DNA of 64,000 nucleotides, taken from positions 3,038,001 to 3,102,000 of the forward strand of contig CM065652.1 in NCBI GenBank assembly GCA_033220425.1, written 5' to 3'. The notes beneath the pieces were generated by a model. That model searched no databases. It was given only the letters and a program-made list of their open reading frames with translations, and had not been told where the DNA came from. The position numbers and the translations under genes were made by a program. Positions 26,662 through 33,701 of the stretch are shown piece after piece (the first letter of the stretch is position 1; every line of letters begins with the position of its first letter). Source of the stretch: Lepraria neglecta. Its lineage: Eukaryota; Ascomycota; Lecanoromycetes; Lecanorales; Stereocaulaceae.

Positions 26662-29600
26662 CTAAACAGCTGCTGGTGTCGCCAGATGAGTTCGTTCTTG
26701 CATCGCCGACAAGGATGCTGTAACTGGTGTCTGAGAAGCGCTCGGTGCGGGGGTGTTGCTTCGTGTGGCTGGGGCACTTCTGTTGTGTGCCATGTGACTC
26801 TGAACTAGATGGCCAGCGGCCAGTGCACTGCAACAAGACACTTCTCCAGCGAGTACACCGGCGGCGATAATGCAGGCGAGTTTGCGAGCGTTGTCTCCGG
26901 GGTTTGTTGGATGAGAACCTCGGACACCAAGCATATCGAGCATAGCACTCTGGGGTTCGAGGATCGTACCGCCACCCAAGGTGCCCACTTCGATCGAAGG
27001 CATCGAGACACTGATTTGAAGATTGCCTCCGAGACTGGGTAGTAATATTAGCCGAGTAGGATCTAATGACATCTTAGGGACTTACTTCTTCATTATTGTA
27101 ATACAGTTACTACTCTCAACGTTCTGGGCAGGATCTTGTCCAGTAGCCAGGAAGATGGCAGTGACAATATTAGCAGCATGGGCGTTAAACCCACCAATGC
27201 TCCCAGCCATAGCACTTCCAACCAAGTTCTTTGATATATTCAACTCAACCAGAGCGTCCACATTAGTCTTGAGAACTTTCCGCACGACATCGCTCGGAAT
27301 AATAGCTTCTGCTACAACACTCTTTCCTCGACCGTCGATCCAGTTAATAGCAGCAGGTTTCTTATCTATACAATAGTTTCCTGATACAGAGATGATTTTC
27401 ATATCTTCAAATCCTGCTTCAGTAGCCATGACGTGCAAGGCATGCTCAACTCCCTTTGAGATCATATTCATTCCCATAGCATCTCCAGTAGTTGTCTTGA
27501 ATCGGACGAAGAGGTAAGTACCTGCGAGAGCGGTCTTAATAGATTGAAGTCGAGCAAATCTGCTTGTTGAGTTGAAAGCTTTCATCATATTTTTCTGGCC
27601 ATCCTCCGAGTCGAGCCAAATCTTCGCAGCACCTGCTCTCTCAAGCGTTCTAAAACTAACACAAGGACCTCGGGTCATCCCATCGCCGGTAAGGACAGTG
27701 ATTGCACCACCTCCAGCATTAATGGCCTTGCAGCCACGGCTCGTGCTGGCAACGAGAACACCTTCAGTAGTAGCCATAGGCAAGAAGAAGCTTTGCCCGT
27801 CGATGACGATGGGACCAGCGACACCGACCGGAAGAGGCATATGACCAATAACATTTTCACAGCAAGCGCCCAAGACACGATCAAAATCATAGTGCTCGTA
27901 TGGCAGCTTCGATGATTCCAAAAGACTGGTCGTCTCGGCAGTCGCAGAGGTACGTGAAATAATAGCTCTCCGGATTTTGACAGCTCTAGTAGTATCCTTG
28001 AGAGTTCTTTCGAGGGAGTAACCAGGAATTTTTCCTTGCATGGATAATTTGACAAGGTCTTCATCGTGAAGTTCATGGGCCAACTTTGCTTGAAGATAAT
28101 GCTCCATTTCAGCCTGCGATCGACGAATGGTAACACTCTTAGTTTGCTCTTCGACCTTCTTTCCCATAGTAAGAACATCTTCCTCATCATCTATCGAGGC
28201 AGGGGCTGACGGAGGCAGATTCACAGGAGCTTGTCCATCGATGCTTGGTAGTTTCATTGCTCGTGTTGAGGCATTATTGAATTTTTCAGCCTGATCAAGT
28301 TCAATAGCGTTGACTGCATGGTGTGGTGGCATCTGAAGAGGCTCCTTGATACTCCATCTAGCTGCGTTAAATAAATATCCATTGAGAACCACGCTCAATG
28401 CGAGAGCCACCAGTATCCACTTGGAAAGGATCGGATCTTCCAGACTCTTCAGCAAGCTATCGACAGCAATTCCATAGTCACTGTACTCATGATCTTCGTC
28501 TTGCAGAGAAGCCTTATCTCTCCAGTTCTTGGAAGGATTCCTGTAGTGAATAGATGGGTATTCGAGCTCATACTTGATGGGTGTAAGTACTGTGACGACA
28601 GTAGACTTGTCATGAGATTTCACAACCTCAAAAATATGGTCCAGACCATTCGATGCAACCTTGAAAGGGTCCATTGGAGGTGGTGTCATGACGCTAGAGA
28701 GTCCCTGCCCAGAAAGGACGCTTATAGTTGGGCCTTCAGCGTGGCTCTTACCACCTCGAAATGGGATTGTACAAAGGTTAGGAACGTTGAGGATGATGAT
28801 GAATCCAGAGACCAAGAGGACTTTGAACTTGGAAATACTGCTGTCCCAGCCTTTATGGCCGAAGATGTTGGTCTCGTTCGTTCCAGACGTGTCAGCCTTC
28901 GGCCACTCATCACTCTGAGCTACATTCTCAGCGACTCGTCGGCTGATGCCATCGTCTTCCAATGCTTGACGAAGCGCGACATGTCGTTTGATGCGGTTGA
29001 TCTCGAGTTTGATGCTCAAAATTGCCGTGTAGAATGTGAACAGGAGTATACAATCGAAGAACAAGATCCAGGCTGCCAAAAAGCAAAACCGTTGTAAGCC
29101 ACCTTGTACTCTAGAGGCTGCTCCAGCTGCCAATATGCAGATCTCAATTGCGTAGCCTCTGACGATCTCGTATCCTTTCTCTTTGATGGCGACTTGAACA
29201 GCATACTGAATAGATGTCGAGGAAACACCGTATTTTTGTTCGGCAGTCTTTGGGCTCTCCAAAGGACGAGGCCGTCTTATTTCGAGGTCTGCAGACAAAA
29301 CAGCCTTGGTCAAAATAATTGCCTTCTCAAAGCCAATCGTTACAACCAAGAATGGAAGGCCTTCCGATAGGAGAATCATGTTGAGAGACACTCCCATTTT
29401 TGTGGTCACAATTAATCCGAAAAGAAAAGCAAAGACCGAGGAAAACAGAGTCATTGCGAACAACCAGAAGTTGGATCTCATTCGTCGCATCGAAACGAAG
29501 AGGGAAACGAAGGTCAGGTGCATGGATATGTAGCCCAGGACCATAATGATAATATCCAGAGTTTTGGCGTTTTTGAGCAGATCCACGAACTCGGTCCACA

Positions 29601-30318
29601 CATTTGAGGCCCATCCACTGAGACTGCTTCGCGTTCCCTGAGCTTTCACGGCCTTCATGATCCATTTCTTTTGCTCTTTGACTGGTTCTGCTTCGTATCT
29701 AAGGCGAGCACTTTCATCGGTGGGTAATGTCGCTGGGTTTGGTATCTCCTGGGACCGAATCAAGAATTCCGGTGCCTGTACATATGGGATTGAGTATGCC
29801 AGTGCACTGTCCTGTGGAATCGGAGAGAGTGGATTCAAGGTTGCAGGTAAGGGTGTAACGGAAAGGTTTTGCGGCAGTGGTAGGATGTTGGCCAGGGGAG
29901 AGTTAGCAGCCAGGGATTCGGGGAACACAAAGGTTAGCAAAGCCAAATGCTCCGCATCTCGTGAAATCGGGGTATCAATGTCCGAGGTCTGCCATTTCCA
30001 CCCTGTCTCGGAACCCAATTTCAATTGCCTACTGCCCTCAAGTAAAGACGACCAGTCCGCTTTTCCCGTTGAACTGGATTTTATCGAGTCGAATAGGCCG
30101 CTTTCTAGTACGCCCTTGTATGTGGTGCTCGCTAGAAATGCAACAATGACTATTGTGTGTATAGGATGGAGGCATGCTCTCCTCGAAAGACTTTGTATGA
30201 GAGGGGTAACCCGTTTGTTCAACCATTTCGGTGTAGCTGCAGTATCCGCAGTTGGCGCGCCGCGAAATCGTGTAGGTAGGAATTCGAACATCTTAACGGA
30301 ACTATAGAAAACACTCAT
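26662..30318 (-). CDS. HMG1: 3-hydroxy-3-methylglutaryl-CoA reductase
   Basis: This is the ER-membrane enzyme that reduces HMG-CoA to mevalonate with two NADPH, the committed step to sterols. Exons are 30318-27086 and 27034-26662, 1201 residues; the 51-nt intron restores ITIMKNLGGNLQIS. The N-terminal membrane half contains the sterol-sensing region (about residues 240-340, near IIIMVLGYISMHLTFVSLFV and GLPFLVVTIGFEKAIIL). The catalytic half shows all key residues: Glu in TTEGVLVAST, Lys in DKKPAAINWI, Asp in TGQDPAQN and His in AAGHLVQSHMAHNR, plus DAMGMNMISKG for NADPH binding. An internal Met (30291, MFEFLPTRFRG) may be the real start. It is intact. Its right-hand neighbours are a LovC-type enoyl reductase and a broken LovG-type gene, so it could be a self-resistance copy, though full length and domain structure also fit the housekeeping enzyme. 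Confidence 0.95.
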
Positions 30319-32565: not shown

Positions 32566-32982
32566 GATAACATTGAAGTCGAAGACATACTGTAATCTGA
32601 TAGGCTGTGGGGCCACATCAGCTTCCCAAGGTGCTGTCACTGTTGTGATGGTTCCATGCTGACACATGGTACAGCGGCATTTCGGCGTGACGGCGTCTTT
32701 CGGTATCTCTCGCTTAGAGACATGGAGGTGGACTTTCGGTGACAGGTCGGGGCGACGACAGTAGTAAGATTCCGAATGTTGGGGTATTTTCTTTGCATTC
32801 CTGCGCACCCCATGGTGACTGCGCTGGTGTCTAGCACGGTCGCTTTTCGCCCAAGCAACGACCTCCGCAACTATCTCGTAAAAAGAAGGGTAATCTACCC
32901 AACCAACTCAGGTACGGACCACAATAGGCCGGAACGCTGTGAACATGCAGACTGACATCCAGCAGATCGGGAAACCAGGAAA
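32566..32982. promoter_or_regulatory. divergent promoter of the enoyl reductase / FSH1 pair
   Basis: 417 bp separate the two start codons, consistent with a shared bidirectional promoter as found in metabolite clusters. A frame extends upstream of the reductase start (to 32808) but looks like untranslated leader. No factor site is assigned. Confidence 0.4.
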
Positions 32983-33701
32983 ATGACGGCTACCACTAGG
33001 AGACCAGCCGCTGCGACACCATCCAAAGCCCTGCTTTGCCTCCATGGCGCCGGGTCATCAGCAAACATATTCCGCATCCAGCTCGCCAAGTTTCGCCTGG
33101 CACTGAAGCATGAATTTGACTTTGTCTTCGCAAACGGGCCGCACCTTTCATCTGCAGGACCGGGTATACCCCCTATTCGCAGGCGCGGGCCCGCATTATT
33201 CCTGGTTCCGGGGGAGAGGCAGCCATGGACGACAGAATGGCCAAGATCAACGCTGCCGTGCGCGCGACAGTCGAGGAGTGGGAGTGGGTCAAGACGAATC
33301 CCCAGTCGAGGATCGTTGGGGTGATAGCGTTCTCCGAGGGCGCGCTGGTAGCGACGCTACTGCTCTGGTAACAGCACATGGGCTAGGTGACCTGGCTCCC
33401 GACCCTGCACTTTGTCACGCTCATGTGCTGCTATTTCGGAGACGAAGCCACAGTCCACATGCGCGCCGATGCAGAAACGCACGGTAGTGAGAGGCCGTTG
33501 ATCAACGTGCCGACCTTGCACATGCATGGCCGTCAGGATTTCTGCCTCGCCCGGGCGAGGAAGCTGGTTACGATCCACTATTCACCTGACTTTGCCGAGG
33601 TCATGGAGTTTGAAGGTGGACACCACTGCCCGACTAGGCGTGAGGACTTCGAGGAGGCAACGAAGCACATCTTACGACTGGCTCATATTACTATTAAGTA
33701 G
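32983..33701 (+). pseudogene. FSH1 / LovG-type thioesterase gene, broken
   Basis: The family is the alpha/beta-hydrolase FSH1 serine hydrolases. Its LovG branch releases the finished chain from a highly reducing PKS. The start shows KALLCLHGAGSSANIFRIQL and FDFVFANGP. The nucleophile elbow reads VIAFSEGALVATLLLW, and the end region has PTLHMHGRQDFCLARARKLV and FEGGHHCP with the catalytic histidine. These segments match LovG-like proteins in order and spacing. The gene carries about four breaks and cannot make a whole protein as it stands. It stands head to head with the LovC-type reductase gene, the partner expected in a highly reducing PKS cluster. Confidence 0.75.

Follow-up and report, generated by a model that had tools for sequence, protein, structure and literature searches.

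The genome of the lichen fungus Lepraria neglecta carries an intact HMG-CoA reductase gene (HMGR), an intact LovC-type trans-enoyl reductase gene (ER) and a broken FSH1 hydrolase gene at positions 26662-33701 of a stretch of 64,000 nucleotides on contig C7 (the window). The three genes are probably the remnant of a horizontally gained statin-type cluster, of which a resistance HMGR and the LovC-type ER survive. This is the likeliest reading, and its main rival, the separate gain of the genes, seems unlikely. The cluster reading rests on the fact that a second HMGR, of the Helotiales type, adjoins a LovC-type ER and a dead FSH1 gene and is changed at the same position as lvrA of Aspergillus terreus.

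In the lovastatin and compactin clusters, LovC or MlcG works with the polyketide synthase (PKS), LovG releases the chain and an extra HMGR gives self-resistance. The original prediction, made from the letters of the window, placed an intact HMGR, an intact trans-ER and, head to head with the latter, a broken FSH1 gene within about 7 kb; the gene models and the Pfam domains agree with it. L. neglecta belongs to the family Stereocaulaceae in the Lecanorales. The genome searched comprises 42.0 Mb in 11 contigs, and the chromosomal assembly of L. neglecta is reportedly that of Pfeffer et al. 2023. A description of this locus was not found among published titles and abstract openings and may be in print all the same.

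The proposed history starts with a statin-type polyketide cluster, with LovB-, LovC- and LovG-like members, which would have reached an ancestor of L. neglecta from another fungal class and would have carried a spare self-resistance HMGR of Helotiales descent. The trans-ER would have supplied the enoyl reduction absent from the PKS, and the FSH1 thioesterase would have released the chain. The spare HMGR would have kept sterol synthesis running through a pocket altered at the position of human Leu853. Later, the PKS and the tailoring genes would have been lost and the thioesterase broken, with the ER and the HMGR retained and repeats now bordering the rest. In this history the three genes presumably arrived together, and the lost cluster presumably made a statin-like compound. 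If it is true, a target-duplicate resistance gene crossed fungal classes with a partial cluster and outlived the decay of that cluster.

Copies, descent and statin pocket of the HMG-CoA reductase

The HMGR gene has the following features.
27086-30291, minus strand: exon 1, with the HPIH, the sterol-sensing and most of the catalytic domain (Pfam, gene model, Helotiales placement)
26662-27034, minus strand: exon 2, the C-terminal end of the catalytic domain (Pfam, gene model)
26833-26835, minus strand: codon 1136, TGT, a cysteine at the place of human Leu853, which is a statin-contact residue in PMC12467776 and the position changed in lvrA in PMC9500038

The exons are separated by a single intron of 51 bases (GTAAGT..CCCAG), and the product of 1192 amino acids, followed by a stop, shows the Pfam domains HMG-CoA_red, HPIH and sterol-sensing. 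A genome search with PF00368 gave 5 matches at 3 loci, namely the window, C1:5865097-5866295 and C7:2421844-2422896. The genome count of HMGR is therefore two full-length genes and one decayed, distant gene. The C1 gene is full length; its identity to the window copy is 62% across 844 columns and 42% within the first 240 residues. The gene at C7:2421844-2422896 has stops inside and is 30% identical to the window copy over 354 columns; one piece of it weakly matches several HMGR classes. The self-resistance HMGRs lvrA, mlcD and mokG are second genes besides a housekeeping copy, and the window HMGR has the same standing next to the C1 gene, presumably the native housekeeping copy.

A protein search with the window HMGR returned 4587 relatives, the best 120 of which were listed. 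The top relative among them is the ENA protein P0121, with 95% identity across the first exon. The best named rows among the matches listed are from Mollisiaceae and Hyaloscypha (78%, or 79-80% over residues 241-1191), and the 25 rows shown for the C1 HMGR have 63-68% identity to it. In a 43-row tree, the window HMGR and P0121 fall within a Helotiales set of 14 rows (support 97/98), beside Hyaloscypha (92/86). In the same tree, C1 pairs on a long branch with Caeruleum heppii (99/97), a fungus of uncertain class. In a 21-row tree with the longest branches removed, the 14-row Helotiales set received 100/99. On that tree, a forced clade of the window HMGR, P0121 and C1 costs 34.0 log units and is rejected (p-AU 0.0055), and the same constraint plus Caeruleum costs 42.7 log units (p-AU 0.0017), so that the window copy does not group with C1 and its relatives as a housekeeping HMGR would. 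Together, the full-length C1 copy, the rejection of a clade with it and the Helotiales placement speak against the window HMGR as the sole or housekeeping copy, the case that would have counted against the original prediction. The HMGR trees were built without LvrA and MlcD rows, and the Helotiales placement speaks against a shared descent of the window HMGR with either of them. Apart from those of Lepraria, Caeruleum and Claussenomyces, the class and order labels are general background.

Residues are numbered as in human HMGR, and the mapping was checked on D690, D767 and H866. All ten active-site residues that were checked (E559, R590, S684, D690, K691, K692, K735, N755, D767 and H866) are unchanged in the window HMGR. 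The cysteine of codon 1136 stands where human HMGR, C1 and all 54 readable rows among the 120 listed have Leu; 55 of the 120 rows are full length, and the exception, P0199, is read in a wrong frame downstream of the intron. At residue 1134 (human Leu851), the window HMGR has Val. The available part of PMC12467776 counts Leu853 among five hydrophobic residues that hold the statin decalin, and the window HMGR is unchanged at the other four (562, 683, 856 and 857). In A. terreus, according to the available part of PMC9500038, lvrA differs from the housekeeping copy by Leu to Thr at AtHMG1 Leu558, the equivalent of human Leu853. There, a change of the Leu558Thr type in a plant HMGR gave more than 20-fold rosuvastatin tolerance in vitro and raised the tolerance in plants.

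The same pocket position is therefore changed in A. terreus lvrA and in the window HMGR, but to Thr in the former and to Cys in the latter. A published test of Cys at this position was not found, and its effect is predicted from the sequence. An altered pocket with kept catalytic residues, as in lvrA, mlcD and mokG, is present in the window sequence, and the window HMGR may tolerate statins. Compared with P0121, it differs at 6 of 309 catalytic residues and at 52 of 759 residues elsewhere (Fisher p 0.0009), and the protein still looks like an enzyme. A Thr-to-Ile change in the cis loop was dropped as a mark, being present in 11 other rows of 118. The window and C1 HMGRs form a directly testable enzyme pair, and the window copy would add a second natural change at the lvrA pocket position.

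The LovC-type enoyl reductase and the broken FSH1 gene

The ER and the FSH1 relic diverge from a common intergenic stretch.
32027-32565, minus strand: ER exon 1 (gene model, LovC-type match)
31840-31951, minus strand: ER exon 2 (gene model)
31344-31760, minus strand: ER exon 3 with the stop (gene model)
32566-32982, no strand: gap of 417 bases, by coordinates, that separates the start codons of the divergent ER and FSH1 genes, a putative promoter region
32983-33701, plus strand: relic of an FSH1 serine hydrolase gene (LovG-like family) with two frame changes and two in-frame stops

The spliced ER has 355 amino acids and is identical to the deposited protein OEA41_005096. Among proteins of solved structure, LovC is the nearest to it (3b6z, E 1e-142), and the identity is 61% to LovC, 59% to MlcG and 68% to protein P0006 of Xylaria grammica. 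The strong LovC-type character ascribed to this ER in the original prediction is borne out by the identity to LovC and by the structure match. The genome has 24 ER matches, and those outside the window are only 24-45% identical to the window ER, so that the match of the latter to LovC goes far beyond chance. The protein search with the ER gave 956 relatives, of which 120 were listed; the best of these are from Colletotrichum spaethianum (72%) and from Cucurbitaria, Monosporascus and C. truncatum (71%).

In a 49-row tree, the window ER lies inside a LovC superclade of 45 rows (100/100), and the position far from LovC that would count against a statin-type origin was not observed. The tie to LovC, which the original prediction proposed to check in a tree, thus stands at the level of the superclade but does not extend to the LovC/MlcG clade; a LovC-type trans-ER as in the lovastatin-family clusters is present by identity and superclade, though outside that clade. 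In a 117-row tree the superclade has 69 rows, and the recognised lichen-fungus rows (Caloplaca, Brigantiaea and Ptychographa) are outside. Among the matches listed, no named lichen-fungus row is found in the superclade, the window ER apart. Judged by these matches, a Helotiales-type HMGR and a LovC-type ER each appear unusual for a lichen fungus. A fusarielin-type ER (FSL5) is not supported by the tree, which sets the window ER apart from the fusarielin-type ERs. The docking loop of LovC is not diagnostic, since the TRKV of the window ER recurs in 22 of 67 rows of the superclade and in 10 of 49 beyond it.

The FSH1 relic, head to head with the ER, matches PF03959 as two separate pieces and, piecewise, shows 42-63% identity to the FSH1 portions found in two Paramyrothecium proteins. 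On visual inspection, too few bases lie between the stops to form an intron. From its family and from this identity to ER-FSH1 proteins, the broken gene may be of the LovG type. The two Paramyrothecium proteins are annotated as ER and FSH1 in one chain, and the neighbourhood of the two genes is therefore not peculiar to Lepraria. The genome has 7 further FSH1 matches. At C2:729621-735456, another FSH1 gene and an ER-like gene that shares 30% identity with the window ER are some 4 kb apart, and no ketosynthase (KS) match was listed nearby.

Remaining pathway genes, rival readings and known statin clusters

The absence of a PKS from the locus, as originally described, holds: none of the 63 KS matches in the genome lies in the window, and a LovB-type nonaketide PKS was not found there. 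The idea of a PKS remnant in the window was discarded after tblastn with two synthases of this genome, a nonribosomal peptide synthetase (NRPS) part and the LovB KS (best E 0.023 at 2919-3107, 24 kb from the three genes). The nearest KS gene, about 117 kb away, was also rejected as the lost partner, being just 41% identical to the LovB KS. Elsewhere in the genome, two loci come closest to the LovB KS: C3:2933079, with 57% identity across 394 columns (60% in the genome search), and C4:338632, with 58% across 381 columns split into three pieces. Since LovB and PsoA already share 55%, the search for a LovB-like PKS recognised no LovB orthologue among the 63 matches. The search for cytochrome P450, in which 92 of 282 candidates were scored, gave 112 matches, none of them in the window, and a LovA counterpart was not found there. 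Domains of LovD, LovF, a transcription factor or an efflux pump were absent from a Pfam scan of 36 window stretches, in which no search was aimed at these families.

The C3 and C4 synthases raise the question of a pathway that is alive but split, in which the window ER serves an ER-less synthase elsewhere, release falls to another FSH1 protein and the window HMGR gives protection from the product. An ER domain was found neither in the C3 nor in the C4 synthase, whereas the control synthase on C1 shows one. None of the 24 ER matches is near C3 or C4, the frame and splice sites of the window ER are intact, and the further FSH1 matches could provide the release. On the other hand, only these three of many synthases were scanned whole or nearly so, and the C3 synthase is a PKS-NRPS. 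The C4 synthase has AT, DH, MT, KR and ACP parts; a condensation domain was not seen in the frame scanned. The other ERs of the genome could serve both synthases, and the window ER shows loosening. A living split pathway is thus improbable. Somewhat less doubtful, though still not likely, is the retention of an acquired statin-tolerant HMGR after the death of the cluster, either as a stand-alone trait against the statins of neighbours or in the service of a split pathway with an ER-less synthase on another chromosome.

Several observations weigh against a cluster remnant. The GC3 is 0.67 in the ER and 0.48 in the HMGR, and their nearest relatives differ, with no single donor indicated. The 23-row LovC/MlcG clade (100/100) does not include the ER, which sits in an unresolved fork of the 49-row tree with the X. 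grammica group and others. A LovB orthologue in the genome (best KS matches 57-58% by tblastn) and a P450 in the window were not found. P0121, from an ENA contig of 46,800 bases, was compared over exon 1 and is of uncertain source; it may belong to another Lepraria or to a Helotiales fungus. The HMGR trees contain a single certain Lecanoromycete row, C1, and for this reason its role as native copy is one that we infer. Further, among 447 positions with a conservation of at least 97%, the window HMGR departs at 11 (107 of 117 rows depart at fewer) and, in the catalytic part, at 5 of 233 near-invariant positions (fewer in 110 of 117 rows). Five of the 11 departures are common to P0121, including Tyr to His at human residue 533. 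The gene is thus somewhat loosened, to judge from these counts. The ER departs at 5 of 78 near-invariant positions, and 49 of 55 other rows at fewer. Given this excess in both proteins, the cysteine at position 853 may be drift. At a rate of 11/447, a change by chance has a probability of about 0.025 at one named site and of about 0.12 at any of five, and Leu853 was looked up after the list of departures had been made.

The rival to a cluster remnant is that the genes were gained twice, independently, at a single site rich in repeats. The ER and FSH1 genes would then be the relic of another cluster of the LovC superclade, the Helotiales HMGR would have come alone and the cysteine would be drift. 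Such gains agree with the nearest ER relatives not being Helotiales, with the differing GC3, with both proteins exceeding most rows in near-invariant changes and with the repeats on either side, which mark a busy site. However, they require that two unusual kinds of statin-cluster genes adjoin by chance and that drift strikes the lvrA position, and they are unlikely on balance. PMC8476034 finds no co-evolution of lvrA with the genes of lovastatin biosynthesis, so that the differing descent of ER and HMGR is not fatal to a cluster remnant. The idea of a lost or split statin cluster hence survives in part: the extra HMGR, the LovC superclade and the cysteine at 853 favour it, but a LovB orthologue was not recognised, the LovC/MlcG clade leaves the ER out, neither PKS nor P450 was found in the window and ER and HMGR do not indicate a common donor. 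The proposal of a resistance copy has the second HMGR, the rejected clade with C1 and the cysteine at the pocket position on its side and some loosening against it.

Lovastatin-family clusters are described in Aspergillus, Monascus, Colletotrichum, Ilyonectria and Xylaria in the available part of PMC10734572, where they were mined as an HMGR near a PKS with a second copy elsewhere. The lovastatin cluster of A. terreus and its relatives (mlc, mok and those of Colletotrichum, Ilyonectria and Xylaria) likewise have a LovC-type ER and an extra HMGR adjoining, together with LovG, of which the broken FSH1 gene of Lepraria is a putative relative. Unlike in these clusters, at the Lepraria locus PKS, P450, LovD-type and LovF genes were not found, the FSH1 gene is broken, the HMGR is of Helotiales descent and the ER lies beyond the LovC/MlcG clade. 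The same source gives a partial cluster of A. homomorphus as a possible remnant, which keeps other members (lovD, lvrA and lovF) than Lepraria does. It also places lovC and a second lovG of C. orchidophilum away from the rest of the cluster. That LovC/LovG-type pair is also apart from the synthase, but most of the cluster survives elsewhere, and the part of the source at hand mentions no HMGR beside the pair, unlike in Lepraria.

In Monascus, the available part of PMC5222764 lists mokD as an oxidoreductase (LovG type), mokE as a dehydrogenase (LovC type), mokF as a transesterase and mokG as an HMGR. The Lepraria locus retains the mokD, mokE and mokG kinds side by side, without the mokF kind. 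The mok letters presumably follow the map order. For M. purpureus, PMC7528236 describes mok clusters that are incomplete. The statin-type FR901512 cluster of strain 14919 (X. grammica) has eight genes similar to the lovastatin genes (PMC5383895). It has a synthase, whereas none was found in the Lepraria window. P0006 of X. grammica, the species of the FR901512 producer, counts among the closest relatives of the window ER and is probably the ER of that cluster itself. The locus would also bear on a report, in PMC12542154, of a cluster tied to the statin-like FR901512 in the lichen Cladonia rangiformis. Resistance-gene-guided mining, as outlined in PMC10734572, depends on a synthase no farther away than a fixed limit, and a locus of this kind would escape it.

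Flanking genes and repeats

Repeats border the three genes on the left and on the right.
22776-23445, no strand: repeat element with 83-base inverted ends (98% complementary) and related copies on contigs C1 to C8
33837-34375, no strand: pieces of multicopy repeats, located past the FSH1 relic and before the following gene (40 of 95 candidates scored)
34698-36646, plus strand: VWA-type gene of the right flank, in two overlapping open frames (protein search query 35243-36646)

The left element gave 143 match segments over contigs C1 to C8, itself included. The best named rows of the VWA gene are from Alectoria (81%), Lambiella (78%), the yeast Lipomyces starkeyi (78%) and Xylographa (76%). Rows of Bifiguratus, Dissophora and Mycena reach 73-74%, and those of Aspergillus and Sporothrix about 33-36%. 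These rows would fit a lichen-fungus descent of the right flank. Since the gene is patchily spread, it is a weaker witness of that descent than a plain housekeeping gene.

The flanks bear on the explanation that the HMGR stretch comes from a Helotiales fungus in the lichen or the culture, by contamination or an assembly error. Lichens harbour other fungi, and the HMGR is Helotiales-like. However, repeats of the genome itself are present on both sides of the three genes on the same contig, the VWA gene 1 kb past the relic has lichen fungi among its best named relatives, and a 95% identical HMGR is found in a separate ENA-derived contig. Such an origin is very improbable.

No coding frame was noticed in the element at 22776-23445. 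A faint trace of a Tc3-type transposase lies at 23586-24023 (E 0.019, under the family cut-off). An Rfam scan of the window gave nothing at the gathering score. The VWA-type gene looks mobile between phyla. Argonaute-type pieces (Piwi, ArgoL2 and ArgoMid) are present on the minus strand at 18128-19538 of the window, about 7 kb off the HMGR.

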